A stretch of 64,000 nt of DNA from assembly GCA_040183005.1 (NCBI GenBank), contig JAMPIW010000002.1:186001-250000 (forward strand), written 5' to 3'. A model generated the notes under the pieces. That model made no database searches. It saw only the letters and a list, made by a program, of their open reading frames with translations, and was not told where the DNA came from. The stretch comes from Gammaproteobacteria bacterium (GTDB lineage Bacteria > Pseudomonadota > Gammaproteobacteria > Ga0077554 > Ga007554). A program made the position numbers and the translations under genes. Of the stretch, positions 34,632-51,492 are shown piece by piece. Position 1 is the stretch's first letter, and each line of letters opens with the position of its first letter.

Positions 34632-34635
34632 GTTC

Positions 34636-36387
34636 TTATCCCTGCGTGGTTGGTACATTGACCGCGTGTTGATTGGTAGTCTTAGATTCGGTGGTGGATA
34701 GTTCCCAGTGCTTCTCAAGGACACCCAAGAGGCGCCTCTGCCGGTCATCCAACATTGCCGGCGTCCACGTGGCTTCCGCCCGGACCTCTTGCGTCAGGAT
34801 GAAGGGGGACGCAGTGCCCTTGCCCTTGAAGTACACATCCTTCTTCTTGGCAAAGTCGTAGTTGCTGGCAGACGAGTTCTTGTTCCTATCTAGCGGAACC
34901 AGATTGGCCAAACGGTGCGTCCAGCCATCGCGCTCGTCTTCATCCGGGAACCACTTGATCCAGTCCGAACCGTCGGGCGGGGTTTGCGGCAGAACGTGCT
35001 CTAGAGACACGGCATCTTGAAGCTGTACGCCGGGGGCGCGCACCAAGGACTCAAGGCGTAAGACCAGCGCCATCCGGGCCTTGGGCAGATCGTCGTACAC
35101 GTCGCCATCGAGTGCCGCGACGAACTTGCGCTTTTGCGCGTCTGTCAGTGCCAGCGTGGTGAGCGCGGCCAGATCCCCCTTGAAGGTCTCCGGCTCGATT
35201 TCCTTGGTAAGCGCGGCGTAGGTTTCGATGCGCTCGTTGATGCCCACCTTGGTGACCAGCAGGAAATAGGTCAGGCGTTCCAGCGACTGGAAAAATTCTG
35301 CAAGTAGTTTTGGTTGCTGCCGGAAGCGCTTGAAGTAGACCAGCGCTGGTGGCACCCAGTCCTTGAAGTCCACGCGGTTGAGCCAAGACAGGTGTTCGTT
35401 GATAGTCTCGGCGTGTTCAGTGGCCTCGAAGTCGGCATCTCGCACGAAGTCCCACACCTCGGCGTAGGGTTTGATGACCTTGTCTACGAGGTCGATAGGG
35501 GTCTTGTACTCGGTGACGTGCTCCTGGAACTCCTTGACCAGGATGTACTTCTGCTTCTTCTTGGCGTAGATGCTGCGGATGTGACCAAACAGGTCACCGA
35601 AGGCTTCGCGGCCCAGCGAGTTTTCGATCCGGCTCCATTCCTTGGCGTAGGCGCGGCTCTTGACGTCGCCTGCCGTGGTGCGGATCAGGCCCAGCACCTG
35701 CGCCTTGATGATGTCGATAGGCGCGAGGTCGAGCCCCCGGTTGTTGAGCACGGAGAAGATGCGGTACGCGGCTTCGAGGTCGGGCGTGGAGATGACAACC
35801 AGCGAGCAGTCGTTGGCGAGGAATTTCCACAGAGCAATCAGTTCGGCAGGCGGAAGCGCCTTGGCCTTTTCGAGCAGCAGCGTGGCGTTTTCACGGTAAC
35901 GCAGACGGCTGTCTTTCAGCTTGTCCGTACTGGCGACTAACTGTGCGATGCCACCCGGTTCCTGGATATTGGTGCGGAAGAAGTCAGCATCTTCCTCGCG
36001 GGCGGTCAGGCGATACTCGTTTTTCTCGCCAAGACTGACCTTGCCTTTTTTGTAGAGGAAGTCGGTGATGTCGTCTGCCGCATCCGGCATCACGGTGCGC
36101 AACACGGCGAACAGCATCGTGAGCGTAGACAGGCGTTGCTGGCCGTCGACCACCGATGACTTCGGGTCCCGGTCGTTCTTGATCAGAACGATGCTGCCCA
36201 GGAAGTATTGGCTGCTGGCCCCCGAGATACGCGCGTCCTGCATCGCCGAGTACAGATCATCGAACAGCTCCGTGGCCTGTTCGATTGTCCAGGCGTAGGG
36301 GCGCTGGTAGTCCGGAATCTCGAACTGGTAGCTGCCTTCGAAGATCTCCCGGATCAGCTTGTCGTGAGCTTCAAGTGTCTTGGCCAT
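34636..36387 (-). CDS. DUF262/DUF1524 (GmrSD-like) defence protein
   Basis: The N-terminal DUF262 domain shows PDYQRPYAW at 25-33 and [11 protein letters not shown] at about 79-89; the DGQQR element acts in nucleotide-driven DNA cleavage in related proteins. The C-terminal DUF1524 domain has SLEHVLPQ and [20 protein letters not shown], an HNH-type nuclease core. This domain pair is the GmrSD family, type IV enzymes against modified phage DNA. Here it is 583 residues and lies between the WYL regulator and hsdM, so it could handle phage that escapes HsdR by base modification. Confidence 0.85.
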
Positions 36388-36402
36388 TGCGTTTGTTCTT
36401 CC

Positions 36403-37323
36403 CTATCGTTTCTTGGGGCTGCTCGGGGCTTGGTAGCCCGGAGCCAGCTTGGCGTTCTCAACGCCATAAAGCGCCAGCGGATCGCTGAGCCATAGGCGGT
36501 ACTGTTCCTCTTTGAGGCGATGGTCAGGCGAGCAGTCCACGCTCCAGCGCAGCAGCATGTAGCCCGCGACCGCCGCGCGCACGCGCATCCGGATCGCGCC
36601 ATCCTGCATCCCGTAGTCCATCTTGATGATTTCGGGGCGCTCAAGGCGCGGATGCGGCACGAAGTCCAGCTCGACGATGCGCGTCCACTGGATGTCGTTG
36701 TCCGGCCGTTCGTTGGTCTGTGGCTCCTCGTCGAGCAGGGTCGGGGCTTCGATGCGCGTGACGACGAAATCGCGGAACTCGCCGCTCTTGCGATCAAAGG
36801 CACGGACGTGCCAGCGTAGGCCGGTGTCGACAAGTGCGAACGGGACGATGACCCGTTCGGACTCACCACTGCTCATCGAGTGGTAGCGGATGGCGACTGG
36901 CCGCTTGGCGTAAATGGCCCGGCAGATCGGAGCCAACACATCCATCCTGGGGTTGCTCAGGGCGGTCGGAGATTCGCACGGCAGCAGCGGTTGCGTTGCG
37001 CCGTTCACGCCATCGCCGAAGCCGAGAGCCAGCGCTGACAGCACGCGCTGCGATGCGTGATCGAACAGCGGGGAGAACGCCTGCCCGATGCGGTAGACCT
37101 TGTTGCTACCGTCAAAGGTGATGTTCTGCGGCGCAACTTCCCGGTACAGCGCCAAGTCGCGCGTCGCCCCGGCCGGAGCCACGCCGAAACGGTCGATCAG
37201 GTCTGGCCGACCGATTTCGCCGAAAAAGTAGAGCCGGAAGTCGATGTAGGCCAACCGCTCGCGCTGGGCGTGGCTCAAGCTCTCGACGCGCTGGGGTTGA
37301 GTCACCGATGGCTCCTCATCCAA
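36403..37323 (-). CDS. WYL-domain transcriptional regulator (BrxR/CapW-like)
   Basis: The 306-residue protein has an N-terminal winged helix (RLAYIDFRLYFFGEIGRPDLIDRFG), a WYL ligand-sensing domain around 120-205 (VAIRYHSMSSGE, LRWHVRAFD) and a C-terminal WCX-like region. BrxR and CapW have this layout and repress defence operons until infection changes the ligand or DNA state. It is the first gene of the eight-gene operon, 15 bases before the DUF262 gene, and a palindrome lies upstream at 37383-37397, so autoregulation is likely. Confidence 0.87.
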   Translation of the reverse strand: MDEEPSVTQPQRVESLSHAQRERLAYIDFRLYFFGEIGRPDLIDRFGVAPAGATRDLALYREVAPQNITFDGSNKVYRIGQAFSPLFDHASQRVLSALALGFGDGVNGATQPLLPCESPTALSNPRMDVLAPICRAIYAKRPVAIRYHSMSSGESERVIVPFALVDTGLRWHVRAFDRKSGEFRDFVVTRIEAPTLLDEEPQTNERPDNDIQWTRIVELDFVPHPRLERPEIIKMDYGMQDGAIRMRVRAAVAGYMLLRWSVDCSPDHRLKEEQYRLWLSDPLALYGVENAKLAPGYQAPSSPKKR

Positions 37324-37382
37324 GACGGACGACCGAAAGGCTGTGATTGGTTTTATGTTTGTCCATTGCTAGGCGGTTCATA

Positions 37383-37427
37383 TCATCAAACTGATGACAT
37401 TATGCGCCACAACTTGGACTGCAACAA
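37383..37427 (-). promoter_or_regulatory. Candidate promoter and operator of the defence operon
   Basis: On the minus strand, TTGTTG (37427-37422) and CATAAT (37404-37399) are 17 bases apart, a plausible -35/-10 pair with a weak -35. Directly after the -10 lies the palindrome TCATCA-GTT-TGATGA (37397-37383), which covers the expected transcription start. A repressor bound there would block polymerase. It is the only clear palindrome in the 100 bases before the regulator. Confidence 0.5.
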
Positions 37428-37656
37428 CACGAACGTAGCTACGCCTCGGGAGTCGAGTTCGATTCCGTGTTTGGGAATTGAACCGGCGTCCGCAAGTCTC
37501 GCGTTACACGAGATGGGATTTGCAGCTTTTGGCGGGATCAGCCTACAATCTTCCTTGATTGGTGCTCAAGGGAATCCATTGCAGCCGTGATAGGCCGCGT
37601 GGCGTCGCCTCAGCTCCACCATTTACCCATCCAAACACATCCAGCAACATCCACCT
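37428..37656. other. Non-coding stretch at the island/integration boundary
   Basis: No convincing gene is seen. Two things stand out. GTTCGATTCCGT at 37457-37468 opens an imperfect inverted repeat and recurs at 40419-40430. TCAGCTCCACCA at 37610-37621 equals the expected 3' acceptor end of tmRNA (CAGCTCC + ACCA), a common integration site. No T-arm or other tmRNA part is visible upstream, so at most a remnant attachment site is present. Confidence 0.4.
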
Positions 37657-37681
37657 AACCCGCCTAAGTGCGGGTTTTTTA
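37657..37681 (+). terminator. Intrinsic terminator before the decayed integrase
   Basis: AACCCGC and GCGGGTT pair around a six-base loop (CTAAGT), followed by a T tract to 37680. It would stop rightward transcription from a gene once lying to the left, in line with an RNA-gene integration site. Confidence 0.75.
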
Positions 37682-37734
37682 TTGCCTTACTGTCCATTTC
37701 GGGGTAACACTGTCCAATAGCATCCGGCTTTAGG

Positions 37735-37785
37735 TGGGGGTAACTCTTAGGGATAACTCCACAATTCAAAAAGGAGTTACCCCCA
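37735..37785. repeat. 12-bp inverted repeat flanking the integrase ribosome site
   Basis: TGGGGGTAACTC (37735-37746) and GAGTTACCCCCA (37774-37785) are perfect inverted copies 27 bases apart, ending at the integrase ATG. A partial third copy, GGGGTAAC, occurs at 37701-37708. They may be arm-type integrase binding sites or an operator controlling the start codon. Confidence 0.6.
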
Positions 37786-38675
37786 ATGCCCCTAACTGAT
37801 ACCGCAATACGCAATGCCAAGCCCGGTGCGAAGCCTGCCAAGCTGTTTGACGGGCGCGGCTTATTCCCTGCTTGTTACCCCTGCCGGGGGTAAGTGGTGG
37901 CGGCTGAAATACCGCTTCGACAACAAGGAAAAGCTGTTGTCCCTGGGCACTTACCCCGACGTGAGCCTGAAGGATGCCAGAGGACGGCGCGACGCTGCCC
38001 GCAAGTTACTGGCCGACGGCATAGACCCCGGCGAAAACCGCAAAGCCGTGAAGGCGACAAAAGTGGAACGGGCAGCGAACAGCTTTGAAGTGGTGGCGCG
38101 GGAGTGGTACGCGAAGCACGCCCCCAATTGGGTAGAGCATCACGGCGACCGCATTATCAGACGCTTGGAGCGCGATATTTTCCCGTGGATGGGTGGCACC
38201 CCAATTGCCGACGTGACCGCACCCCAATTGCTGGCCGTGGTGCGCCGCATTGAAGACCGTGGCGCACTGGAAACCGCACACCGGGCGCTGGGCAACTGCG
38301 GGCAGGTATTCCGCTACGCCGTGGCTACCGGGCGGGCAATACGCGACCCATCCGGCGACTTGCGCGGCGCACTGCCCCCGGCGAAGGGCGAACACTTCGC
38401 GGCTACCACAGAACCGAAGCAGGCGGCGGAATTACTGCGAACACTCGACGGCTATCAAGGCACCTTCACTGTTGCGTGTGCGCTGCGTCTTGCGCCCTTG
38501 GTGTTTGTCCGGCCCGGTGAGCTTCGCACAGCGCAATGGGCAGACATTGACCTTGAGGCGGCGGAATGGCGGGTACACCGTCACCAAGACCGGCACGGCG
38601 CACATTGTCCCGCTGGCTACTCAAGCGGTGATGATCCTGCGCGAGCTTCACGCCTTGACCGGCAGCGGGCATTAA
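37786..38675 (+). pseudogene. Tyrosine integrase, frameshifted and truncated
   Basis: The start reads MPLTDTAIRNAKPGAKPAKL, the usual N-terminus of P4-type integrases. The frame breaks near 37860 (net +1; expected FDGxGLYLLV) and continues in the next frame with WWRLKYRF, LSLGTYPDVSLKDAR and the catalytic Arg region FVRPGELR. A second +1 shift, one extra G near 38578, leads to YTVTKTGTAHIVPL. It ends at GSGH, before the His-x-x-Arg box and the catalytic Tyr. It cannot be active. It sits downstream of the tmRNA-like end, as integrases of islands usually do. Confidence 0.88.
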
Positions 38676-38735
38676 GGCTTTTAAGCGGATGATCTCGCGG
38701 GTCACCCAAGCCGGCTTATGCTGTGCCCGGCAAAA
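38664..38735 (-). pseudogene. Transposase N-terminal scrap
   Basis: On the minus strand the stretch CRAQHKPAWVTREIIRLKAL resembles the N-terminal helix-turn-helix lead of DDE transposases of the type that begins with KPAWVRxxIxRLKALMP. Nothing else of the enzyme is left on either side, and it abuts the broken end of the integrase pseudogene. The match is short, so the assignment is tentative. Confidence 0.35.
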
Positions 38736-38951
38736 CACAGGCGCTACCTCTCTGCGCCTCCGGCCGCCGTGCCTGCGCCGAAGCATCCCCGCAAACCATG
38801 CTTTGATCCGAACCACTACTCCCCACAAAAACATCAACGCCATGACCGCCTCCGCCAGCTGAAAGGGCGAAGCCTGACATGCACATATGACAACGTTCCT
38901 GTCACATTAGAAAGCTAAACTTGCCTGACCACTGCCAACATCAAGTTCGTT

Positions 38952-39235
38952 ATGTTCAACCGCTGCCGGTTAGCCATTATATTGGGAATACTGCTGACCA
39001 CCACCCTGGCTTACGCCGGCGGCTACGTCGACGGCAACGTGGTCTTTAACCCCGCCAAAGCCATCAACACCGGTGCTGTCTCCATCACCCCCACCTTCAA
39101 CAACGACCAGTTCAACGTCACCCGCGAACAGGACGCCCTGGGCCGCACGGTAGACATGAGCTACGGCCCGCTGGATCAAGTGGCCACCACCAAGGACAAG
39201 CGCGGCAATGAGCATGTCTCGATAATGGGTGTAAA
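38952..39235 (+). pseudogene. Truncated secreted YD-repeat (RHS-like) protein
   Basis: The reading frame starts with a clear signal peptide (RLAIILGILLTTTLAYAGG) and ends in DALGRTVDMSYGPLDQVATT, a YD-repeat pattern of RHS/WapA-type toxins. Full-length members have many such repeats and a toxin tip; here only about 95 residues remain before the sequence turns into the upstream region of the Fic gene. It is probably the 5' stump of a large surface protein cut by insertion or deletion. Confidence 0.55.
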
Positions 39236-39253
39236 TGGGTGTATTATTGGTTT

Positions 39254-40303
39254 ATGCTCCGATCTGACACGCTCCAGATAACCCCGGAGATCCTGAGCCT
39301 GATCGCCGGGATCGACGAGTTCAAAGGCGCCTGGCGCGCCTTGGGCACGCTCGCGCCTGACCGGCTGTTGGCCCTGCGGTGGGTGGCCACCATCGAGAGC
39401 ATCGGCTCCTCCACCCGCATCGAGGGCAGCAAGCTGTCCGACCGGGAAGTGGAGCAACTGCTGTCGAACCTCGAGATCAAGTCCTTCGCCACTCGCGACG
39501 AACAGGAGGTGGCCAGCTACGCCGATCTGATGGATTTGGTGTTCAGCTCCTGGCAGGACATCCCGTTCACCGAGAACCACATCAAGCAGTTGCATCAGAT
39601 CCTGCTGCGCTATAGTGAAAAAGACACCTGGCATCGCGGCAACTACAAAACGAACTCGAACAGCGTCGCCGCTTTCGACGAGAACGGCGCGCAGATTGGC
39701 ATCGTGTTCCAGACGGCGCCGCCTTTCGACACGCCCCGCCTGATGACGGAACTGGTGGCTTGGGTGAACGAGGAACGAGAAGCGGCCCGCCTGCATCCGT
39801 TACTGGTTATCGCACTGTGCATCGTGGTGTTTCTGGAAATCCATCCATTCCAGGACGGCAATGGTCGGCTGAGTCGCGTACTGACGACGCTGCTGCTCAT
39901 GCAGGCGGGATACGCCTATGTGCCGTATAGCTCATTGGAGAGCGTGATCGAACAGAGCAAGGAAGCATACTACCTGGCCTTGCGGCAGACGCAGGGCACG
40001 ATCCGCACCGATGCACCGAATTGGCAACCATGGCTGATGTTCTTTCTGCGCTCCCTGGCCGAGCAGGTGCAGCGTCTGGAGAAAAAGGTCGAACGTGAAA
40101 AACTCGTGTTGGCATCCATGCCCAAGCTATCGCTACAGATTATCGAATTCGCACGCGAGCATGGCCGCGTCACCATCGGTGAGGCCATCAAGCTGACCGG
40201 GGCCAGTCGCAACACGCTCAAGCAGCATTTCCGCGCACTGGTCGAACGTGGCACGCTGAACCAGCATGGTAGCGGCCGAGGCGTCTGGTATAACCTGCGC
40301 TGA
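39254..40303 (+). CDS. Fic family protein (AMPylation enzyme), self-inhibited class II type
   Basis: The start is put at ATG 39254; a GTG at 39239 would add five residues. The 349-residue protein has the Fic core HPFQDGNGRLSR (catalytic His about 197), which transfers AMP from ATP to target proteins. An N-terminal S-TRI-EG matches the inhibitory (S/T)xxxE(G/N) motif of class II Fic enzymes, so it carries its own brake. The C-terminus is a winged helix (VTIGEAIKLTGASRNTLKQHF), common in DNA-linked Fic proteins. It stands alone between pseudogenes, without an antitoxin gene. Confidence 0.92.
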   Translation: MLRSDTLQITPEILSLIAGIDEFKGAWRALGTLAPDRLLALRWVATIESIGSSTRIEGSKLSDREVEQLLSNLEIKSFATRDEQEVASYADLMDLVFSSWQDIPFTENHIKQLHQILLRYSEKDTWHRGNYKTNSNSVAAFDENGAQIGIVFQTAPPFDTPRLMTELVAWVNEEREAARLHPLLVIALCIVVFLEIHPFQDGNGRLSRVLTTLLLMQAGYAYVPYSSLESVIEQSKEAYYLALRQTQGTIRTDAPNWQPWLMFFLRSLAEQVQRLEKKVEREKLVLASMPKLSLQIIEFAREHGRVTIGEAIKLTGASRNTLKQHFRALVERGTLNQHGSGRGVWYNLR

Positions 40304-40415
40304 TCTTGGTTTCGGACTGCAGCATTTCCGCGCACTGGTCGAACGTGGCACGCTGAACCAGCATGGTAGCGGCCGAGGCGTCTGGTATAACCTGCGCTGA
40401 TCTTGGTTTCGGACT
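40222..40415 (+). repeat. Perfect 97-bp tandem duplication at the Fic 3' end
   Basis: Bases 40222-40318 are repeated exactly as 40319-40415. The unit holds the last 27 codons of the Fic gene, its stop and 15 bases downstream. The first copy keeps the gene intact; the second is out of use. Identity without a single change suggests a recent event. Confidence 0.95.
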
Positions 40416-40707
40416 AGGGTTCGATTCCGTATTCGGAACTGAATACGCACCGGAAAGCATATGAGGTTGAACAGTCTTTCCGGCGACCAAACCAGAGGAA
40501 AAACCGCTTGATTGTCCGCAGCCGAACGGCTGTCTGGGTGGCCGTTTCGATTGAATCCGCTTCGCAGGCGCGCTGGCTGGCGATATAGGCATGCCCCGCA
40601 TCGCGCTGGGCGTCAATGGAGTTGTAGTCCTGATCCAGCCCCTCCTCGGTCGATTTACGGGTATAGACGGCGCAGCGTTGGCGCTTCCTGGCGGGATCGG
40701 CACTCAT
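40414..40707 (-). pseudogene. Serine recombinase, N-terminal fragment
   Basis: The start [20 protein letters not shown] is the conserved N-terminus of large serine recombinases with the active Ser in YTRKS, followed by [16 protein letters not shown]. After about residue 45 the similarity stops and the frame runs into unrelated sequence until 40414. The catalytic domain, recombinase domain and zinc ribbon are missing. The gene start overlaps the DUF2924 stop, the normal pairing in such elements. Confidence 0.85.
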
Positions 40708-40890
40708 GCACGTCCCTCCTTGCGATCCTTCTTCAGCGAATCGCGTAGCCCGAAGAACGCCGGGCCTGACCAGCGTGAACCGGAGATTTCGTTAGCGATT
40801 CGCGTGAGGCTGTTGTAGGGTTTGCCGTTGTATTCAAATTGCCCATCGGACATGGCCACCACGCGGTGCGTCTGCCCCATGAATTCACCA
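40704..40890 (-). pseudogene. DUF2924 protein, C-terminal fragment
   Basis: On the minus strand the frame reads MGQTHRVVAMSDGQFEYNGK, then [21 protein letters not shown], the hallmark end of DUF2924 proteins, which normally precede a serine recombinase in integrated elements. Its TGA overlaps the recombinase ATG (ATGA). The upstream part of the gene is replaced by the second integrase remnant near 40890, so only the last 60 or so residues remain. Confidence 0.75.
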
Positions 40891-41163
40891 GAGGGCGGCG
40901 CGACGCTGCCCGCAAGTTACGGGAATGGTGAACCGCAAGGCACAAAAAGCAGCAAAACAGGATCGAGCGGCGAACAGCTTTGAAGTGGTGGTGTGGGAAT
41001 GGTACGCGAAAAATGCCCCCAATTGGGTAGAGCATCACGGCAACCGCATTATTCGGCGTTTGGAGCGCGGTATTTTCCCGTGGATTAGCGGGCGACCAAT
41101 TGCCGACGTGACCGCCCCCGAATTACTGGCTACGGTGCAGCGCATCGAAAAACGGGGGTGCAT
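40891..41163 (+). pseudogene. Second tyrosine integrase remnant (internal fragment)
   Basis: The stretch starts with GGCGGCGCGACGCTGCCCGC, nearly the same as inside the first integrase at about 37984, and goes on as AANSFEVVVWEWYAKNAPNW, VEHHGNRIIRRLERG and VTAPELLATVQRIE with frameshifts. It is a diverged copy of the middle of the integrase at 37786-38675. It lacks start, catalytic part and end. Confidence 0.85.
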
Positions 41164-41206
41164 TGGAAGAAGCGTTCGATCTAATCCCGACAGGCCGCTA
41201 TTCCTA

Positions 41207-41277
41207 CTGTGTCACAAAGTGATCAGGGGATGTAGCGCAAGGCAAAACCATGCGCCCTTCAGCACTTTATGACACAG
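41207..41277. mobile_element. MITE-like 71-bp inverted-repeat element
   Basis: CTGTGTCACAAAGTG (41207-41221) and CACTTTATGACACAG (41263-41277) are inverted copies with one mismatch in 15. The inner bases continue a partial hairpin (GCGCA with TGCGC). There is no coding capacity. It is either a miniature transposable element, paired insertion-sequence ends, or a large terminator for the wspR-like gene, whose stop is six bases away. Confidence 0.5.
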
Positions 41278-41282
41278 CCGGA

Positions 41283-42347
41283 CTATGCCACTTGACTGGC
41301 CGACGCCTGCTCCACCGGGCCAGGAACCGGGGCTGCGGCGATGCGGAATCTGTTGCGGCCCGACTCTTTCGCCTCATAAAGTGCCTCGTCAGCTATTTTC
41401 ACCAAGTCTGCGGGGTTTCCGCCATCTCTGGGTACGATGCCCGCCACCCCCAAACTGATGGTAACGTGATCCGTCGTTTTGGAATGCGCATGAGCAAAGC
41501 CCAACGCATCCACGCTGGCACGCAGTTTCTCGGCAATCAAAGCCGCACCACCGGCATCGGTATCGGGTAGCACTACCGCAAACTCCTCCCCCCCATAACG
41601 CGCCACCACATCACCGGCGCGTTTTAGCGTTGCATCAAGTGTCTGCGCCACTTTGCGCAGACACTCGTCACCGCCCTGGTGACCGTAATTATCGTTGTAG
41701 GCCTTGAAGTGATCGATATCAATCAATATCAGAGACAGGATATTGCCATCCCGTGCGGCACGCAGCCATTCCTGCTCAAGATATTCGTCGAAACGGCGCC
41801 GGTTACCGATGCCTGTTAGGCCATCCAGGCTGGAGAGACGCTGCAATTCGGCATTTTTCATTTCCAGCTCAATTTGCATACTGCGTAACGCACGGTAAGC
41901 TTCGTCGCGCTGCTGCTGGGCAAGATAGGTGCGAGTGTGTGCGCGAATCCTGGCTATCACTTCAATCTGATCAGGAAATTTGACCAAATAATCGGTCGCC
42001 CCCAATTTGAACGCCTCGCTCTTGGTCTTGGGGTCCTCTTTGCTCGACAAGACAATGATCGGTGTAGTCTTGGTTACCGGATTGGCGCGAAAAAACCGCA
42101 GCAGCACCAGCCCATCAATTTCCGGCATTACCAGATCCTGCAGGATGACGGTAGGCTGAAATTCAATGGCTGCGCTCATCGCCCTTGTCGGATCCGCACA
42201 ATAATGCCACGCGATATCCGGCTCGCTTTCCACCATGCGCCGTAGCGCCTCACCCACAATAGCTTGATCATCAATCAACAATACCCGAGCAAACACTGCT
42301 GATTCGGTCGATATGTTATCCACTGCTTTGTAATGTGTCTCATTCAT
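41283..42347 (-). CDS. wspR: WspR-like response regulator with diguanylate cyclase domain
   Basis: The 354-residue output protein has a receiver domain with phospho-acceptor Asp71 in LQDLVMP, a linker coil, and a GGDEF domain with the active GGEEF at 252-256. RAGD at 243-246 is a product-inhibition site (RxxD) five residues before it. Phosphorylation by the CheA-type kinase should switch on cyclic di-GMP synthesis. It is the last gene of the operon and its ATG overlaps the CheB stop by four bases, as in the Pseudomonas wsp operon. Confidence 0.93.
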   Translation of the reverse strand: MNETHYKAVDNISTESAVFARVLLIDDQAIVGEALRRMVESEPDIAWHYCADPTRAMSAAIEFQPTVILQDLVMPEIDGLVLLRFFRANPVTKTTPIIVLSSKEDPKTKSEAFKLGATDYLVKFPDQIEVIARIRAHTRTYLAQQQRDEAYRALRSMQIELEMKNAELQRLSSLDGLTGIGNRRRFDEYLEQEWLRAARDGNILSLILIDIDHFKAYNDNYGHQGGDECLRKVAQTLDATLKRAGDVVARYGGEEFAVVLPDTDAGGAALIAEKLRASVDALGFAHAHSKTTDHVTISLGVAGIVPRDGGNPADLVKIADEALYEAKESGRNRFRIAAAPVPGPVEQASASQVA

Positions 42348-43405
42348 AATGACGATACACCTCTCTTCCTTGTATCGGCAGATGTTGGAAAACGCTTAAT
42401 AAGCGCAGGCGCGATAAGCTCGATAGACATCACCTCCACTGCCGCATTCAGATCGGCCGCCGCCTTGGGCATACCGTATACGGCACAACTGGCCTGATCC
42501 TGAGCAATGGTATGAGAACCTTTATTCCGTAATTTCAGCAACCCCTGCGCACCATCCCTGCCCATGCCGGTCAGCAAAACACCTACCGTTACCCCGCGCC
42601 AGTTTTCCGCGACACTGCAAAAGAACACATCTGCCGAGGGACGATATACTAGATCGCGTGGCAGAGGAGTGTATCCAAGCGACTGGTTTGGATACATCAC
42701 CAGATGGTCGTTAGTACCTGCTATCAATACCGTACCTACAACCGGGTGATCACCCTCGCGTGCCAAACGCACATGCAGCGGCGTTTGTTTATCCAGCCAT
42801 CGGCTCAACTCTTCGACAAACTGGGCATCGACGTGCTGGACAATAATGATAGGCACGGGATAATCCGCCGGCAGATGTGACAGGATATTGGCCAATGCCT
42901 GTGGGCCACCGGTGCTTGATCCAATCACCAGTAAACGCTCTCCGCCGCCAATCACGGGATTCACCTGCTGCTCAAATGGAATACAACGCGCACCTACAAC
43001 ACGACGGGTTAGTTTTTCAATCGTCATTATCTTTGACTGGAAGGTCTCGCAGGTATCACAGCCATACACGACACCCTGCATGCTGAGCACTGGCGTATTC
43101 ACTGCATCCAAGGCTCCCGCGCCCATCGCCTCAAAAACACGGGGTGACTGACTATCCACTGAGCCTGTTACGATCAGAATAGGGCAGGGTGTCGCCGCCA
43201 TGATGCGCCGTGTTGCCTCCACGCCGTCCATCACCGGCATCATCAAATCCATGAGAATCAGGTCCGGCTTGTCTACAGCACATCGTTGCACTGCCTCGGC
43301 ACCATCGTATGCCACCCAGGCTATCTGGTGTGCGCCAGTCGCCAGCACGCCGCGGCGCAAGCTTTCCACAGCCAGGATCATGTCATTAACAATTGCAATT
43401 CTCAT
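42344..43405 (-). CDS. wspF: Chemotaxis methylesterase CheB (WspF-like)
   Basis: The protein of 353 residues has a receiver domain (ILMDLMMPVMDGVE) and a C-terminal methylesterase domain with the catalytic Ser in GSSTGGPQA, His in QHVDAQF and Asp in TGMGRDGAQG. It removes methyl groups from the receptor and thereby lowers kinase output; loss of WspF in Pseudomonas gives constant cyclic di-GMP. It overlaps both neighbours by four bases. Confidence 0.93.
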   Translation of the reverse strand: MRIAIVNDMILAVESLRRGVLATGAHQIAWVAYDGAEAVQRCAVDKPDLILMDLMMPVMDGVEATRRIMAATPCPILIVTGSVDSQSPRVFEAMGAGALDAVNTPVLSMQGVVYGCDTCETFQSKIMTIEKLTRRVVGARCIPFEQQVNPVIGGGERLLVIGSSTGGPQALANILSHLPADYPVPIIIVQHVDAQFVEELSRWLDKQTPLHVRLAREGDHPVVGTVLIAGTNDHLVMYPNQSLGYTPLPRDLVYRPSADVFFCSVAENWRGVTVGVLLTGMGRDGAQGLLKLRNKGSHTIAQDQASCAVYGMPKAAADLNAAVEVMSIELIAPALIKRFPTSADTRKRGVSSL

Positions 43406-46149
43406 CGTACAGGCTCCCCAATCAAATCATGCACCGCTTGCCGCAAGGTGTCGTCGTGAAAACTGCCTTTTGTCAAATAATAATCTGCGCCGGCATTCAA
43501 GCCGCGGCGGCGATCTTCCTCCCGGTCTTTATAAGACACAATCATCACTGGCGTGTGCCGTAAATTTGCATCCTGCTTGATCATGCGCACCAATTCGATG
43601 CCATCCATACGCGGCATATCCACATCGGTAATCACCAAACTATATTCTCCAGCACGCACGGTGCTCCAGCCATCCACGCCATCCACCGCAACATCAACCT
43701 CATAACCAATCGACTCCAGCAGATTGCGCTCCACTTCACGCACCGTGATGGAATCATCCACTACAAGAATGCGCTTGCCATGCACCTGATTTGGTACGCC
43801 ACCCGCATCATCCCCGATGCGGATCAATCGCCCCTCTTTTGCCACCACTTTAATCGAATGCAGCATGTCATCCACATCAATAATGAGTACCGGCGAGCCA
43901 TCTTCCATCAGTGCGGCGGCGCTGATGTCCGCCACCTTACCCAGACGCGGCGGCAACACATGCACCACCAGATCACGCTCACCAAGAAAACGCTCAACCA
44001 CGAGGCCATATTTTTCATCACGGTCTGCCAAAACCACCACGGAGAGAGTATCCGGCGATTCCGTAATGCCCTCTGCACCCAGGATCTGAGCGGCTGATAC
44101 CAGACCGACGCGTTGCCCACCAATGCTTGTGAATTGGTGCCCCTCAATAGACTCTATCTCACTCTGTTCAGGCCGAAAAATTCGCTCAATACGGGCCAAT
44201 GGAAAGGCATACGGCTCGCCTGCAATCTCCACCAGCAATGCCGGAATCACCGACAAGGTCAACGGTAATTGCATATGAAAACGCGTACCCTTGCCCGGAT
44301 GTGAAATAACTCTTACCGTGCCACGCATTTCCTGAACAGTGTCATGCACCACATCCAGCCCCACGCCACGCCCGGAAATTTCACTGACAGCATCCCTTGT
44401 TGTAAATCCAGGCAAGAACAAAAATTCGAGCAGTTCCGCTTCGCTAAGGTTAGTCGCCATGTCAGGGCTTACCAAACCACGATCAAGCACTTTTTTTCGG
44501 AGCTTATCAAGATCCACGCCGCGTCCATCATCATCCAGTACAATCGACAACATACCCGACTGATGATAGGCAGACAGATACAAAGTACCTTTGGCTGGTT
44601 TACCTGCCTTGATACGTTCATCGGGCATCTCAACGCCATGATCAACAGCATTGCGCAACAAGTGGTTGAGAGGCGCTTCAACTTTTTCCAGGATCTCTCT
44701 ATCCACCATGGTTTCTTGCCCGGCGATCTCCAACTGCACGTCCTTGCCCAGTGAACGCGCCACATCACGGACCATGCGTGAAAAACCATGGATCCCGTCT
44801 GCAAAGGGACGCATGCGACTGGCGATCACCTCACGGCGCAAACGCCAGGAAAGATTATTCAAGCGATTATCGAATGCCTCCAACTCAGCCAAACGCTCCG
44901 CAAGAAACTCACGGCTACTGGCAATCTTGCGCTGTGCATCACGCAACTGCGCTTGCACCTGATCATCACGCCGCCCAGCTTCCAATAAATCCCGCAAACC
45001 ATCGAGCGAAGAAATCAGCTCGGCTTGGCCGCGTTTTAGCCTTAACATGGATTCCGTATAAGGCCTCACCCAACGCGACTCCACCATTGACTCGCCGGCC
45101 AACCCCATCAAGCGATTCAACTGTTCAGAGCTGATACGTAGCGCCCTGTCCTTTGCAGGAGCCTCCGGTTCTTTTCGAACAGGAACAAGGGGCGGCGACA
45201 CCGCAGGCTGAGCGATAGGCGCCTGCGCGAGCTTTACGGGATATTTTTCACCCTGAAGAATGGCATCTAAAGACACCAGCAGAGCATCGTATTCCACCTG
45301 ATTCTGGCTAACCCACGCATCTGCCGGGCCATCCAGCGTGGCAATACGCGAGATCATGTCTACACCCTTCAAGAGGGCATCAACATGATCGGCATTTAGC
45401 ATCAACTTTCCTTCCTGAGCCGCTACAAAAACATCTTCCATGCGATGCGCGACCTTCACCGCCGCCGACACACCTACCAATCGCGCAGCACCTTTAACGG
45501 AATGTGCCGAGCGCATTAGTGGTTCCAGACGCTTTACTGATGCGGGATCTTGCTCCAGTGCCAACAACCCCTCCGTCAACACTACTGCCTGCTGTTCAAC
45601 CTCCATGCGAAACAACGACAACATCGAAAAATCGCTCAGCCCACCGCCATGGGCTCCTTCAACCACAGCAGTTTCGTCAGAAACCGGGTGGGCAACAAAT
45701 GTTATTTCTGGAGAAAATATCTCATGGCTATCGCTCGTCACCGCAGGCGGCGAATTCAACACCCCATCCAGCGCATTAAGCAGAGCGTCAAACTCGCCCT
45801 GATGCTCGCCAAGCCAAACCTCGTCCGCTTCATTCAGCGCGGCAATACGGGAGATCATATCAACAGCTTTCAAAAGCACATCGACATGATCAGCGGTTAA
45901 AACAATTTTCCCCTGCTGCGCGGCCACAAAGCCATCTTCCATCAGATGTGAAATGCTGACCACCGTCGGCACACCAACAAGACGAGCCGCCCCCTTGATG
46001 GAATGCGCCGCACGCATTAATGGCTCAATGTGATTCCGATCGACAGGCGTCTTTTCGAGAAACAGCAACCCTTCAATCAACGCCGCCGTCTGTTGTTCTG
46101 CCTCCACACGAAACAGATCCATCATGGAAAAGTTGCCAAGATCCATCAT
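43402..46149 (-). CDS. wspE: Hybrid chemotaxis kinase CheA-REC with two Hpt domains (WspE-like)
   Basis: Of the 915 residues, two Hpt domains come first, with phospho-His at about 49 and 216, each in (R)AAHS(I/V)KGAARLVG-type helices. Then follow the dimerisation helices, the ATPase domain (LLRNAVDHGVE, DDDGRGVD, SGRGVGLDVV), a CheW-like domain and a C-terminal receiver with Asp842 in ITDVDMP. It phosphorylates the REC-GGDEF and CheB proteins. Two Hpt domains are more than the single one in the usual WspE. The repeats are similar, so they arose by duplication. Confidence 0.93.
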   Translation of the reverse strand: MMDLGNFSMMDLFRVEAEQQTAALIEGLLFLEKTPVDRNHIEPLMRAAHSIKGAARLVGVPTVVSISHLMEDGFVAAQQGKIVLTADHVDVLLKAVDMISRIAALNEADEVWLGEHQGEFDALLNALDGVLNSPPAVTSDSHEIFSPEITFVAHPVSDETAVVEGAHGGGLSDFSMLSLFRMEVEQQAVVLTEGLLALEQDPASVKRLEPLMRSAHSVKGAARLVGVSAAVKVAHRMEDVFVAAQEGKLMLNADHVDALLKGVDMISRIATLDGPADAWVSQNQVEYDALLVSLDAILQGEKYPVKLAQAPIAQPAVSPPLVPVRKEPEAPAKDRALRISSEQLNRLMGLAGESMVESRWVRPYTESMLRLKRGQAELISSLDGLRDLLEAGRRDDQVQAQLRDAQRKIASSREFLAERLAELEAFDNRLNNLSWRLRREVIASRMRPFADGIHGFSRMVRDVARSLGKDVQLEIAGQETMVDREILEKVEAPLNHLLRNAVDHGVEMPDERIKAGKPAKGTLYLSAYHQSGMLSIVLDDDGRGVDLDKLRKKVLDRGLVSPDMATNLSEAELLEFLFLPGFTTRDAVSEISGRGVGLDVVHDTVQEMRGTVRVISHPGKGTRFHMQLPLTLSVIPALLVEIAGEPYAFPLARIERIFRPEQSEIESIEGHQFTSIGGQRVGLVSAAQILGAEGITESPDTLSVVVLADRDEKYGLVVERFLGERDLVVHVLPPRLGKVADISAAALMEDGSPVLIIDVDDMLHSIKVVAKEGRLIRIGDDAGGVPNQVHGKRILVVDDSITVREVERNLLESIGYEVDVAVDGVDGWSTVRAGEYSLVITDVDMPRMDGIELVRMIKQDANLRHTPVMIVSYKDREEDRRRGLNAGADYYLTKGSFHDDTLRQAVHDLIGEPVR

Positions 46150-46838
46150 GAAATGCCCCGCTCAAGGGAGGGAAACAGTAGATTTTCATCCAGGCAACCA
46201 ATGTGCCTCTCTTGGCCTTTTTCTTTCCAGTGCAACATGCCGCACAAATAATTTGTAGCATTATGTATCGCTGTAGCGGGCTGGCTTAACAATTCCAGAT
46301 GGGTGTACCGCAGAACACCTCTCACCTCACCTACCGGGAATACATAACGGGCATCACCTTTTGCAATCAGCATCATCCGCTCATAGACACCATTGACAAC
46401 ATTATTGCCATGCACATCCCCGCGTCGAATGCCGAGCAATTGCCCAAGAGAAACACACAACTGAAGCTCACCACGTATGTTTACCAAGCCACGCAAGACC
46501 TTTCCTCGACGGTGTGGAACACTATGTATCTTGCGGAAATCTACCACTTCTTTAAATAAATGGGTCGGCAATCCAAGCCACTCATCACCTATTCTGAAGA
46601 CAACCACCGACGAGGCGCTACGTTCCTTTTTTTTTCGCGACTCCCTGGCAACTTCCTCTGTTCTCTCATTTATATATTCCACAGAGGCATTGCGGTCCAA
46701 CAACTTTCGCCCTGCTTCGGAATAGACCTTACAGTTAACGCAATGAATAACACTTTCTAGCTCAGGGCATCGCGGAACCTCACGGCCCCACACACCGATC
46801 TTGTTCCAGCAATCATTGATATCGATTTTATTATCCAT
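46146..46838 (-). CDS. wspD: CheW-type coupling protein (WspD-like)
   Basis: The 230-residue protein has an N-terminal Cys-containing lead (VIHCVNCKVYSEAGRKLLDRNA) typical of WspD, then a CheW domain (VVVFRIGDEWLGLP, GLVNIRGELQLCVSLG, RGVLRYTHLEL). It links receptor and kinase. A run of nine A on the coding strand (46635-46627) encodes the Lys triplet before GluArg. It overlaps the kinase start by four bases. Confidence 0.88.
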   Translation of the reverse strand: MDNKIDINDCWNKIGVWGREVPRCPELESVIHCVNCKVYSEAGRKLLDRNASVEYINERTEEVARESRKKKERSASSVVVFRIGDEWLGLPTHLFKEVVDFRKIHSVPHRRGKVLRGLVNIRGELQLCVSLGQLLGIRRGDVHGNNVVNGVYERMMLIAKGDARYVFPVGEVRGVLRYTHLELLSQPATAIHNATNYLCGMLHWKEKGQERHIGCLDENLLFPSLERGIS

Positions 46839-46847: not shown

Positions 46848-48152
46848 TTAACTCTTATGAGAGCCTGGAATCCATTTATCATTCATCATAATGATTCTCT
46901 GGGCACGGGAGCGATAACCCTCCCCAGACTTCATATCACCTTGTTTTTCGGCATGCATGGCAAGATGCATCAGTGCCTGATAGTGCCTTGGATCAAGGTA
47001 AACTGCCTTGTGGAATAGTTCATTCGCCAAAATAGAATTACCTTCCGCCTCACGTATCACGCCCAAAAGGTAATAAGCAGGCGCCGAACAGGAATAATTC
47101 CTTAGGCAATCCTCACACAGGGCGGCGGCCAATGCCAACCCCCCCTGATCCGCATACCGCTTTGCCTCCTCTATAAAGTCAGCCTCAGTCCGCACCGCAA
47201 TCGACGTGATTTTTTCAAACATATCCACTTTTTTTTGTTTGGGGAGATGCATCCGCTGGGAAGATGATGGAATCCGTCCATTTAAAATATCACGCGCGTT
47301 TACTTGCAAGGGGGGGGTTCGGGGGACGGCAGCATATTCCGTTGATTGATTATTTTTTATATAGGCAAATGCACCGCTACGGCGCACATATTTGAATAAC
47401 GCATTATCAACGCAACCACCTTCAGCATGACCCAAAAAAAGCAATCCGCTTGACGTCAATAATCCGTGCAACTTTCTTAATGCTCTATTCTGGGTTGGAC
47501 GGTCAAAATAAATAAGGAGATTTCGGCAAAATATGACATCGTACATCTCACTACCAAACAGAAATTCATCGTCAAGAACATTACCACACTTGAAATTGAC
47601 CGAGCTGCGAATAATTTCATTTAACTCATAGCTATCGTCAACTTTTTTAAAATGTCGGTCACACGCATCACCCTCATCTCCTCGAAATGAATTTCTCCCA
47701 TAGACACCACGCTTCGCCCGACTCACTATGCGTGTACTAATATCCACTGCATCAATGCGAAAGCTTCCTCGCTCCAGACCGATGTCAGTCAATATCATTG
47801 CGATTGAATATGGCTCTTCACCACTTGAACAGGGAACACTTAAGACACGCAGAACCCTTCCATCATTCGTGGGGAGCCATTCCTGAGAAACATGCTCGGC
47901 AAGTAAACGAAAAGGTTCAAGATCACGAAAAAACCATGTTTCAGGAACAGTGACCTCGTCAACCAGCTCCTGTAATTCGTTCGCGGAACTCCGCAGCAAG
48001 GCAAGATATGCGTCGTCATTTTCCACCTGGCACGACTCCATGCGCCTACGCACCGCTCTCATAACAGTAGCGGAGCCTACGGAGGCGCTATCCAGGCCCA
48101 TGGCCTTTTCAAGCAGGGCCTCAATCGCCGCTATCATTGAGGCATCCATCAC
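46848..48152 (-). CDS. wspC: Chemotaxis methyltransferase CheR with TPR repeats (WspC-like)
   Basis: The N-terminal 260 residues are a CheR SAM methyltransferase (PETWFFRDLEPFR, SVPCSSGEEPYSIAM, DVIFCRNLLIYFD); the C-terminus has TPR helices (YYLLGVIREAEGNSILANEL, AVYLDPRHYQALMHLAMHAE). It methylates receptor glutamates. The linker holds a run of eight C (coding strand, 47317-47310) and one of eight A (47236-47229). The start overlaps the end of the wspB-like gene by 32 bases; internal ATGs at 48149 or 48137 would shorten that. Confidence 0.9.
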   Translation of the reverse strand: MMDASMIAAIEALLEKAMGLDSASVGSATVMRAVRRRMESCQVENDDAYLALLRSSANELQELVDEVTVPETWFFRDLEPFRLLAEHVSQEWLPTNDGRVLRVLSVPCSSGEEPYSIAMILTDIGLERGSFRIDAVDISTRIVSRAKRGVYGRNSFRGDEGDACDRHFKKVDDSYELNEIIRSSVNFKCGNVLDDEFLFGSEMYDVIFCRNLLIYFDRPTQNRALRKLHGLLTSSGLLFLGHAEGGCVDNALFKYVRRSGAFAYIKNNQSTEYAAVPRTPPLQVNARDILNGRIPSSSQRMHLPKQKKVDMFEKITSIAVRTEADFIEEAKRYADQGGLALAAALCEDCLRNYSCSAPAYYLLGVIREAEGNSILANELFHKAVYLDPRHYQALMHLAMHAEKQGDMKSGEGYRSRAQRIIMMNDKWIPGSHKS

Positions 48153-48630
48153 TATGATTTTCAGCGCTATCCGTTTCGTCCACTGAGGTGAAAAACGTCC
48201 TATGCAACTGTACAGGCAATAATTTTTCTATATCAATGAGCTGAATAATATTCCCTTGATAAACTGCAACGTCCCCAAGGAATCCCGTGTCGCTCGTATC
48301 GACCCCCGACGGCGAAAACGCTGACTCCGGCAGCTTAATGGTGCTTGCAATCCTTTCCGCCAACAGTGCGAGAAGATGGGGGTTTTTTCTGTCGTCCTGA
48401 ATATTCACCAAAATAATCCGGCTACTTAACCAGGCACGTGAAATATTCCCTGTCATCAATACGGTCAGATCAACAACTGGGACGCTCCTTCCCCGGTAGT
48501 TGAGCAAACCCGCCACATAATCTGGTGCACGTGGAATCTCCTTTAACGTAACGTAAGGTATAACCTCAACGACCTGAGTCACATCAAGCCCGTAGCTATC
48601 CTTGCCAATCACAAAAAGCAGCAGCATCAT
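48121..48630 (-). CDS. wspB: CheW-type coupling protein (WspB-like)
   Basis: The 169-residue protein is a single CheW domain (LLLFVIGKDSYGLDVTQVVEVIPYV, GLLNYRGRSVPVVDLTVLM, GNIIQLIDIEKLLP). It lies between the receptor gene (27 bases away) and the methyltransferase gene. Two CheW proteins, one before and one after CheR, are a mark of the Wsp operon. Confidence 0.9.
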   Translation of the reverse strand: MMLLLFVIGKDSYGLDVTQVVEVIPYVTLKEIPRAPDYVAGLLNYRGRSVPVVDLTVLMTGNISRAWLSSRIILVNIQDDRKNPHLLALLAERIASTIKLPESAFSPSGVDTSDTGFLGDVAVYQGNIIQLIDIEKLLPVQLHRTFFTSVDETDSAENHSDGCLNDSGD

Positions 48631-48657: not shown

Positions 48658-50655
48658 TCAGGAGACACTCAGAACCTTGAATCGTGAAACACCATTTTGT
48701 AAACCATGAGCTGCGTCATTTAGCCGATCTATGACGACATTCGACTGACGTAACGATTCCACTGTCTGTTGTGCAGATTCACTCAATTGGACAATCGCCT
48801 GCTTAATCTGGTCGGCACCCTGAGATTGCTGATGCATGCTGTCATTGACCATTTCAAAGCGCGGCGTCAACGCCTGCACTTGATCAATAATATGCGTTAA
48901 TTGACCACCAACCTGGCGCACATCCTCAACACTGCGGCGAACCTCATCGGAGAATTTATCGACACTCATCACACCCGCGTTTACCGCGGATTGCATCTCC
49001 TTGATCATTTGCTCGATATCCCATGTGGCGACCGCAGTCTGATCGGCAAGGCGACGTATTTCTGTTGCGACAACCGAGAACCCAAGGCCATATTCACCGG
49101 CTTTCTCCGCTTCAATGGCGGCATTCAGAGAAAGAAGATTTGTCTGATCAGCCACCTTGGAGATGGTCGTAACCACTGTATTGATGTTGCTGGCCTTTTC
49201 GCTGAGCACTTCAAGTTTGGCCGCAATGGAAGCCGATGCTTCGACCATCTTGCGCATGGTATCTTCCATCTTCACCAGCGCATCCTGACCGTTAGCCGCA
49301 GACTCGGCGGTACTTTCCGCCACCCTGGAAACTGCGTCCATGGTATTTGTCAGCTCTTTCGTGGTCGCGGAAATCTCTGTCGATGTCGCCACAATTTCAT
49401 TCACCGTCGCGACCTGCTCGGTCATCGTCGCCTCCTGCTGCCGGGCGGTGGCCGCAATCTCCGTACTCGATGATGTCACCTGAATCCCTGAGCGCTGCAC
49501 CTGGGCTACCAGAACGTTCAAGTTATCCATCATACGTTGCACACCGCTAGCCAAGTGTCCAATGGCATCTTCACCATGTACCTGAATTTTCCCTGTCAAA
49601 TCGCCTTCGGCGGCCTTAGAAACCACAGAGGAAATACTATCCACTTTAGTCTTCAAATCCTCCATCGCCACACGTTTTTCTTCGATTGATGACCTAAGGT
49701 TATCAATCATTCCCTGTAATCCGGCTGCAAGTTCGCCTATTGCGTCGTTACCGGAAAAAGTGATTTTCCCCGTCAAATCACCCTTTGCCGCCTTGTTGAC
49801 CACATCAAGAAGGATATTTACTTTATTTCTCAGATCCTGGGTGGTTTCTCGTTCGCGCGCATCTGCCATATCCATCTTGTCAGCCATGGCATTGAAAGCC
49901 TGCCCCAGATGGCCTATTTCATCAGCGCTGGAGACGCTAACTCGAGCGCCGATATCGCCATTGGCCCGCCGTGTCACAACATCAATCAATCCCGCCAGGG
50001 GCCGGGTAATCCAGCTGCGCAACAAGAAACTGGCCAGTATCAATCCCAGCGTCATTAACACCAGATTCGCGCCTGCACCAATCCACAAGTCACGCTCCAC
50101 CGTAGCATCCATATCCGCCAGTGAATACGTTACTCGTATCGCGCCATTCACACTGCCGGATGGCACGTTATGACAGGCAAGGCAATTGACATCATTGGTA
50201 TTTTCCGTCGCCAGGAAGGGGGTGACCACTGTCAGCGCACGCCCTTCCTTGTGACTATCCACCTGAACAATCTGTTCACCACGCAGCGCCTTAAAATCCA
50301 GCTCATCAACCGGCTTTTCCTCGGCACGCCCCGGCCCAAACTGATTATTAACGGGTTCGCCGCGAATAACACGCGCATCCATGACGCCCTGCCGCCTTAA
50401 CACTTTCTTGCGCAAGATATCGCGTTGCGACATTGTGCCCGTCAACATCAGGGTATTCAGGGCATCAAAGTAAGAGGTTGTCATGTCTTTGGTGTGACTT
50501 TTGGCCAGATCCAGGATGCGCGCCTTTTCACTAATGCCGGAATAAAGCGTCACCGAGCCTACCACCAGAAGAAAGATCATGGCGATGGTCACATTGACCT
50601 TGGCCAGGACAGAAAGACGATTAAGCGCAGGAATGCGGTTGATCAGAGATAACAT
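48658..50655 (-). CDS. wspA: Methyl-accepting chemotaxis receptor with periplasmic CxxCH motif (WspA-like)
   Basis: The start is put at 50655, with AAGGA upstream; an ATG at 50700 is less likely. The 665-residue receptor has membrane segments near 18-38 and 192-213. Its periplasmic part contains CLACH at 158-162, the covalent heme-c motif. A HAMP domain follows at 214-266, then two repeated HAMP-like units (AAKGDLTGKI and AAEGDLTGKI). The signalling tip reads ISKVADQTNLLSLNAAIEAEKAGEYG. It should control the CheA kinase. The heme motif is not known in Pseudomonas WspA and suggests redox or gas sensing. Confidence 0.92.
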   Translation of the reverse strand: MLSLINRIPALNRLSVLAKVNVTIAMIFLLVVGSVTLYSGISEKARILDLAKSHTKDMTTSYFDALNTLMLTGTMSQRDILRKKVLRRQGVMDARVIRGEPVNNQFGPGRAEEKPVDELDFKALRGEQIVQVDSHKEGRALTVVTPFLATENTNDVNCLACHNVPSGSVNGAIRVTYSLADMDATVERDLWIGAGANLVLMTLGLILASFLLRSWITRPLAGLIDVVTRRANGDIGARVSVSSADEIGHLGQAFNAMADKMDMADARERETTQDLRNKVNILLDVVNKAAKGDLTGKITFSGNDAIGELAAGLQGMIDNLRSSIEEKRVAMEDLKTKVDSISSVVSKAAEGDLTGKIQVHGEDAIGHLASGVQRMMDNLNVLVAQVQRSGIQVTSSSTEIAATARQQEATMTEQVATVNEIVATSTEISATTKELTNTMDAVSRVAESTAESAANGQDALVKMEDTMRKMVEASASIAAKLEVLSEKASNINTVVTTISKVADQTNLLSLNAAIEAEKAGEYGLGFSVVATEIRRLADQTAVATWDIEQMIKEMQSAVNAGVMSVDKFSDEVRRSVEDVRQVGGQLTHIIDQVQALTPRFEMVNDSMHQQSQGADQIKQAIVQLSESAQQTVESLRQSNVVIDRLNDAAHGLQNGVSRFKVLSVS

Positions 50656-50720
50656 ATATAGAGTGTCCTTTTCCCAAACGGAAATGCAACGAAGCAGCAA
50701 AGCAAAACCTACCCCGCTAA

Positions 50721-50747
50721 TCAGCGGCAGGAAATTGCAAAACTTTA
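50721..50747 (-). promoter_or_regulatory. FliA (sigma-28) type promoter for the wsp-like operon
   Basis: On the minus strand TAAAGTTT (50747-50740) matches the enterobacterial sigma-28 -35 element in all eight bases. After 11 bases comes GCCGCTGA (50728-50721), six of eight with GCCGATAA. It lies about 66 bases before the receptor ATG. This would place the operon under the flagellar late-gene sigma factor. Confidence 0.7.
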
Positions 50748-50874
50748 ACGGAGTGTTTCGTCAGGAAAGGACGGAAAGAAGCGCCATCTGCACGCAGCCT
50801 GCGCGCACAAAACACTATCGCGCTTTTTACGATCGGAGAATCAAGGAGTTACAGGATGACAAACAGACAAAGAA

Positions 50875-51492
50875 TCAAAGCTTGCGGTGATTAAGGTGGC
50901 GGCGCACATACCAGACAAGAGCTATCACCAGGATAACGCCAATGATCGCATCGAAGCGATGGAAATAAACACCTAATGTATTCCAGTTTTGGCCGAGCTT
51001 CATGCCAACCCAGGCCAATCCCCAGGACCAGATATAGGAACCTACAAATGTATAAACAACAAAACGCCCCATTGCCATACGGCTGATACCGGCGGGAAAG
51101 GCGATAAAAGTGCGAATCACCGGCAGCAGGCGGCCTACAAAGATAGTGATATCACCGTAGCGTTGAAACCAGCGGTCCGCCAGCGCCAGATCATGATGCG
51201 ACACGAGAATATATTTGCCATATTTTTCCACCAATGGCCGTCCACCCCATGCGCCAACATAATATGCCACCAGCGAACCCAGCACACAACCCACCGCGCC
51301 CGCTAGTGCCACCAACCATAACTGCATTTCACCTGTAAATACCAGATAGCCTGCAAAGGGCATGATGATTTCCGAGGGCAAAGGGATGCATGCACTCTCG
51401 ATTGCCATAAGCAGTACAACACCGCCATAACCCAAGCGGGAAATGGTGGCAATGATGAAACCTGCAAGCAGTGTAATGATCTTTTCGATCAC
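50875..51492 (-). CDS. DedA family membrane protein
   Basis: The 205-residue protein has the DedA pattern: an N-terminal membrane helix, ESACIPLPSEIIMPFAGYL, a GSLVAYYVGAWGGRPLVEKYGKY segment, FVGRLLPVIRTFIAFPAGISRM and further membrane helices. Members flip polyprenyl or phospholipid carriers across the inner membrane and support envelope integrity. It ends at the region upstream of the wspA-like gene and lies six bases from uppP, so the two are probably one operon; both concern undecaprenyl lipids. Confidence 0.92.
   Translation of the reverse strand: MIEKIITLLAGFIIATISRLGYGGVVLLMAIESACIPLPSEIIMPFAGYLVFTGEMQLWLVALAGAVGCVLGSLVAYYVGAWGGRPLVEKYGKYILVSHHDLALADRWFQRYGDITIFVGRLLPVIRTFIAFPAGISRMAMGRFVVYTFVGSYIWSWGLAWVGMKLGQNWNTLGVYFHRFDAIIGVILVIALVWYVRRHLNHRKL

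Follow-up and report, generated by a model that had tools for sequence, protein, structure and literature searches.

The operon and its receptor

The window (the whole stretch of 64,000 nucleotides that was analysed) carries on its minus strand an operon of seven genes, given here in their order of reading:

48658-50655, minus strand: receptor (WspA position), its periplasmic sensor domain predicted to be of the c-type-haem kind (CLACH at residue 158), with a HAMP domain and an MCP signalling domain
48121-48630, minus strand: CheW (WspB position)
46848-48152, minus strand: CheR methyltransferase (WspC position)
46146-46838, minus strand: CheW (WspD position)
43402-46149, minus strand: hybrid CheA, with two Hpt stretches and a receiver domain (WspE position)
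42344-43405, minus strand: CheB methylesterase (WspF position)
41283-42347, minus strand: REC-GGDEF diguanylate cyclase (WspR position), with GGEEF and RxxD present

Neighbouring genes of the operon are at most 27 bases apart, and the gene upstream of it lies 219 bases away on the same strand. MCP, CheW, CheR, CheW, CheA-REC, CheB and REC-GGDEF, the mark of a Wsp-type system, thus stand in one operon, and its content and order bear out the original prediction of a Wsp-like operon. The Pseudomonas counterpart, which we take to be ordered wspABCDEF-wspR, has the same seven functions, the last again a REC-GGDEF diguanylate cyclase; by contrast, the receptor here has a periplasmic c-type-haem domain and the CheA two Hpt stretches. 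The gene order is common to the compared loci as far as their contigs reach, apart from a CheB match absent in L094 and a first CheW match absent in L106 at the threshold used. In the hybrid CheA (43402-46149) the two Hpt stretches are in tandem, and the orthologous matches differ in length. Because GGEEF, RxxD and the receiver aspartate are all present in the REC-GGDEF protein, it would be expected to act as an active, feedback-controlled diguanylate cyclase. Adjoining the end of the operon, positions 33066-41272 hold what we take to be an HsdM-like methylase, DUF262-like and Fic-like ORFs and two integrase-like fragments, likely a mobile or defence island.

The receptor departs from the Wsp model in its sensor. 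A CXXCH motif is found in the periplasmic domain of all 38 receptors compared (38/38). The best match among sequences of solved structures is the Geobacter receptor domain 3b47 (E 0.01), two related Pfam families score below their cut-offs, and an AlphaFold model of the receptor (mean pLDDT 91) has as its best Foldseek match 3b42, the GSU0935 sensor domain (E 3.7e-06, with a TM-score by query length of only 0.38). CXXCH in a periplasmic Cache-like domain is a feature shared with the haem chemoreceptor domains of Geobacter GSU0935 and GSU0582 and with the sCache_heme family (PMC12889525; this and the other PMC papers cited below are used in extract). The domain here differs from them in falling below the Pfam cut-offs of the known families and in being joined to a Wsp-type operon. 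According to the same 2026 preprint, haem Cache domains fused to signalling modules have the properties of sensors for nitric oxide and not for oxygen (PMC12889525), and the cue of the present receptor is likely to be nitric oxide or redox state. In Wsp systems WspA is needed for surface sensing (PMC8036289). Here the place of Wsp's surface sensor is taken by a domain of the c-type-haem kind, so that the expectation that the system favours attachment follows from the cyclic-di-GMP output only.

The site upstream of the receptor gene

Between the operon and the gene upstream of it lies a promoter-like site, whose parts are as follows:

50721-50747, minus strand: candidate sigma-28 (FliA)-type promoter TAAAGTTT-N11-GCCGCTGA, 14 of 16 matches to the FliA consensus
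50740-50747, minus strand: -35 element TAAAGTTT, with TAAAGTTTT invariant in 8 of 8 aligned family members
50721-50728, minus strand: -10 element GCCGCTGA, with GCCG invariant in the family
50715 (+/- 2), minus strand: predicted transcription start, taking the spacing between -10 and +1 from the sigma-28 promoter of E. coli aer
50714-50727, minus strand: inverted repeat CCGCTGATTAGCGG over the -10, intact only in the four genus members of the alignment
50666-50672, minus strand: ribosome-binding site AAAAGGA, from the family alignment

Read from 50747 to 50721 on the minus strand, the site is TAAAGTTT-TGCAATTTCCT-GCCGCTGA, with a spacer of 11, and was scored against TAAAGTTT-N11-GCCGATAA. Recomputed on that strand, the sequence, coordinates, N11 spacer and 14/16 score of the original prediction all came out the same; the distance from the end of the site to the receptor ATG (50655) is 65 bases, not the 66 it had given. 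The arrangement is that of FliA promoters of E. coli (PMC2859248) and Pseudomonas (PMC7286023), a TAAAG-type -35 and a GCCG-type -10 separated by 11-12 bases. It differs from them in its second half of the -10, where ATAA is missing (GCCGCTGA here) and a GCCG[CT]TGA-like element is kept across lineages. The description "near-consensus sigma-28 promoter" accordingly holds for a sigma-28-type site conserved beyond the genus, but not for the strong promoter that it implies, both mismatches lying in that second half and the departure being kept across lineages.

The genome has the machinery to read such a site. It codes for FliA (C7:1028200; 269 bits, cut-off 189.6), FlgM (C7:913035), FlhA and a flagellin, with a second Flagellin_N match resembling flgL. 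The FliA gene lies in what we take to be a flhA-flhF-fleN-fliA-che-like cluster. FliA-type sites precede flagellin, flgK, flgM, cheV and a STAS-cheY-cheA-like operon; the flagellin, FlgM, CheW-REC protein and STAS protein were checked, the remaining names (flgK for example) being presumed. The site in the window resembles those before flagellin, flgK, flgM, cheV and the che operon. A FliA-family search of this genome (G000) returns three genes only, FliA and two which by length and score are like RpoD and RpoH, so that RpoS may be absent; many other genomes show more than three matches.

The original prediction had suggested looking for the same site in relatives, and it extends well beyond the genus. 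Seven relatives in the genus and family keep it with a changed spacer. In the 155 bases before the ATG of eight family members, the main invariant blocks are TAAAGTTTT, GCCG-TG-TTAGC and the ribosome-binding site. With TAAAG and GCCG required intact and at least 11/16 matches, 23 of the 39 upstream regions of orthologs have the site; of 386 control regions, taken from other ORFs of the same loci, 2 have it. Orthologs came from a search of named genomes, among the best 80 matches, and are mainly gammaproteobacterial MAGs: 31 of 79 loci of that search had a near-full-length receptor with upstream DNA, and 8 other loci complete the 39 rows. L035, L037 and L044, which have the same sites as L081, L082 and L106, were left out, and L101 and L109 share one best match. 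Some rows call for care: in L119 the bases at the site position are masked, which makes its lack of a site uninformative; L096, L099, L110 and L134 keep TAAAGTTTT and CCG without the first G, and are counted as lacking the site in the 23/39 figure; and the site of L108 is of a different make, with spacer 12 and GCCGATAG.

On a receptor tree of 38 rows, built quickly without L109 and with SH-aLRT as its sole measure of support, the site is found in 21 of the 23 rows of the main clade (SH-aLRT 100). Five changes are needed to place it, against a mean of 8.7 with shuffled labels (five or fewer in 4 of 500 shuffles); ten rows have no site, including two labelled Gallionellaceae, the four weak rows and the masked one being uncounted. 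Across 13 lineages, mean pairwise identity is 0.56 at the non-core motif positions versus 0.32 in the spacer. A common operator beside the site was sought by eye, and the dyads seen in L086-L089 and in L038 are not shared. In L086-L089 the dyad lies about 110 bases before the receptor (TAGAACTT-ATTA-AAGTTCTA in L089) and overlaps the -35; it is possibly an operator of that lineage.

Of the 23 genomes with the site, 18 have a FliA that scores above the family cut-off. The other five assemblies (G007, G056, G058, G061 and G070) gave neither FliA nor FlhA. Loss of flagella with retention of the site, which would oppose a role of FliA, was considered and rejected, each of the five having a Flagellin_N match (G056, G061 and G070, that of G070 being of flgL size), FliG (G058 and G061) or rod-type genes (G007, G058, G061 and G070). 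Incomplete assembly is the likelier cause of the missing FliA, which is no proof that these organisms have it. Among the genomes tested for all five markers, only G073 lacks every one, and it also lacks the site. Presence of FliA does not predict the site, because 8 of 9 tested genomes without the site have FliA.

Similar sites occur before some Wsp operons with other receptors. In a set of 47 loci with other receptors or cut-off matches, 42 had an upstream region, and the same definition of a site was satisfied in three of these 42 (L115, L116 and L123) and nearly so in L117; receptor matches are on record for 11 of the 42, and an earlier receptor gene may be missed in the rest. L115 (8004-8031) and L116 (2640-2667) have perfect 16/16 FliA sites with spacer 12 before two-receptor Wsp-type operons, L117 has 14/16 with one core mismatch and L123 has 13/16. 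The remaining other-receptor loci, many labelled as Oxalobacteraceae genera or Verrucomicrobia, had no site by this definition. The layout of paired receptor genes is common to L115, L116 and L117, which may be one lineage; in L115 the site ends 54 bases before a GTG start candidate, and the first receptor has a dCache-type domain.

The -10 element and competing readings

Of the readings considered, the best is that the site would serve as promoter of the seven-gene haem-receptor Wsp operon, read by FliA (sigma-28) RNA polymerase; judged from sequence, we give it about two chances in three (0.68). Against it speak the ten rows without a site, the five site-bearing assemblies in which neither FliA nor FlhA was found, the incomplete separation by a scoring matrix (below) and, above all in the sequence, the -10 element. 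This was tallied in the 21 sites whose spacer is 11, two of the 23 having spacer 12 and being set aside: position 5 is never A (0/21; T in 12, C in 9) and position 7 is A once (1/21; G in 13). Flagellin promoters from the same collection of ortholog-bearing genomes behave otherwise. The FliA motif was found in 22 of 28 flagellin upstream regions examined (28 of 30 loci used, L203 and L209 left out), with A at position 5 in 17/22 and at position 7 in 22/22. Fisher tests of this difference give 7.7e-08 and 2.2e-11 at the two positions (7.4e-06 and 1.6e-08 with 13 lineages), figures that treat related sequences as independent and that compare with flagellin sites picked by consensus match, a choice favouring A at 5 and 7. 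Position 5 also varies in other FliA-type sites, being C in the organism's own flgM (GCCGCTAT) and T or G in 5 of 22 flagellin sites. With a matrix built from 21 of the 22 passing flagellin sites (training median 22.4 bits), the site in the window scores 15.9 bits, next to 16.9 for flgK, 15.9 for cheV and 13.7 for flgM. This matrix separates incompletely, three controls reaching at least 19 bits and a threshold of 10 bits taking 27/39 against 12/386, and the 13.6 bits of L119 are an artefact of its N run. A -10 placed further downstream (TGATTA) was weighed as an alternative and rejected, since other lineages do not conserve it.

Because the -35 and GCCG are conserved and the rest of the -10 departs from consensus in a conserved way, the site would be a conserved weak, perhaps helper-dependent, FliA promoter. 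In our own alignment position 5 corresponds to the melting adenine. At E. coli flgBP2, opening of the promoter by sigma-28 polymerase is poor unless a helper frees the base at which melting begins (PMC12781870), and the sigma-28 promoter of E. coli aer has CRP as its activator (PMC2859248). The aer promoter falls silent when three bases of its -10, CGA, are replaced together (PMC2859248), which counts against the FliA reading of the present site. Like this site, the aer promoter is of the FliA type, precedes a sensory gene and has a non-consensus -10, and it needs its helper; aer is a single aerotaxis receptor, whereas here a whole cyclic-di-GMP operon would be served.

The same -10 can be read otherwise. 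The conserved element could be a protein-binding site, or the promoter of another factor that happens to resemble a FliA promoter, FliA being uninvolved; the recurrent GCCG[CT]TG, which most FliA -10 elements do not have, would then be the mark of that factor. The consistent departure from consensus agrees with this, as do the continuation of the family's conserved block into TTAGC past the -10 and the dyads, seen by eye, of L086-L089 (overlapping the -35) and of L038 (on either side of the site). However, these dyads differ between lineages, the spacing and both half-sites are those of sigma-28, the flgM site of this very genome has C at position 5, and the sites of L115, L116, L117 and L123, before other Wsp-type operons, do have A at positions 5 and 7. 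We consider this account unlikely, if worth keeping in mind.

It is improbable, too, that the FliA promoter is real but minor, with most of the transcript made from a main promoter further upstream or by read-through from the preceding gene. That gene, DedA-like, is on the same strand at 219 bases, and the sole terminator-like hairpin found in 50600-50900 sits on the -10 itself; but in the more distant loci with the site no DedA-like gene was found at that place, and a simple, crude scan of 50600-50900 detected no sigma-70-like promoter in the gap. The hairpin might also be the terminator of the upstream gene, the promoter likeness being incidental. CCGCTGATTAGCGG is indeed followed by GGTAGGTTTT, yet one such match compares with 0.6 by shuffles, and the repeat is broken in G004, G005, G006 and G007 while the -35 and GCCG stay; with the repeat broken outside the genus, the terminator reading was rejected as very improbable.

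There remains chance, which for a motif of this kind has to be reckoned with. At two or fewer mismatches the window has one match, the site itself, where dinucleotide shuffles average 0.01. The whole 3.33-Mb genome has 13 sites at that level and 48 at three or fewer, against 34 for the reversed pattern, so that the bare match is weak evidence; since the site is conserved in orthologous upstream regions, across genera in which the spacer diverged, it is more than that, and a chance match is hardly credible.

Sensory arrays and the flagellar sigma factor

If FliA does read the site, the following sequence of events can be proposed. FliA would bind it, transcription would start near 50715, and production of the operon would wait until the flagellar hook is complete and FlgM has been exported. 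The weak promoter would be tuned to supply low amounts of a signalling array, or would need a helper protein. In the array, the haem receptor might report nitric oxide, oxygen or redox state, and CheA would drive cyclic-di-GMP synthesis. In this manner a flagellated cell would be equipped in advance for leaving the swimming state. In short, what the conserved site suggests is that a cell assembling its flagellum at the same time produces the system that could end its swimming later on.

The links between FliA and cyclic di-GMP that we found in extracts of the literature are mostly to enzymes of breakdown, which keep cells swimming. FliA is tied to the phosphodiesterases YhjH in E. coli (gene yhjH, PMC4866697) and BifA in Pseudomonas putida (gene bifA, PMC5300878); in both cases, as here, FliA is linked to enzymes of cyclic di-GMP, but the target here is a system of synthesis, with the opposite expected effect. 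In an rpoF mutant of Acidithiobacillus caldus the transcript of a diguanylate cyclase/phosphodiesterase gene is very low (PMC6543871), and two genes for diguanylate cyclases are among those with lowered transcripts in the tabulated fliA transcriptome of P. aeruginosa (PMC4866697). In Halomonas, the extracts of PMC5907407 place sigma-28 sites before the flagellar-type che cluster and mention none for the GGDEF-containing cluster. Control of a wsp operon by FliA was not reported in those parts of the open-access literature that the search covered. If true, such control would let one switch govern both swimming and the exit from it, with a built-in delay. The conserved weak -10 elements would also form a natural set of sigma-28 promoters for studies of DNA melting.

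A broader proposal is made tentatively, at somewhat less than even odds: in this group of gammaproteobacteria the flagellar sigma factor would command sessile-side arrays too, namely the haem-receptor Wsp operon and, in the family of the window, a pilG (Pil-Chp-type) operon. A completed flagellum would in that case be the checkpoint for arming both the cyclic-di-GMP and the pilus-signalling arrays, the Wsp promoter being held weak by a conserved, poorly melting -10 that needs a helper. That FliA commands both arrays in this family is a possibility because a pilG-like operon carries a similar site there. This operon codes for receiver, receiver, CheW and MCP, genes which we presume to be pilG-pilH-pilI-pilJ, and has TAAAGTCT-N11-GCCGATAC 110 bases before its first gene:

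L074:13323-13349 (own genome C7:173323): FliA-type site of the pilG-like operon

Fourteen loci of this kind were fetched and nine compared. Among these nine, the site is absent in L172, L173 and L174, weaker in L168 and L170, and present with its full core in L166, L167, L169 and L171.
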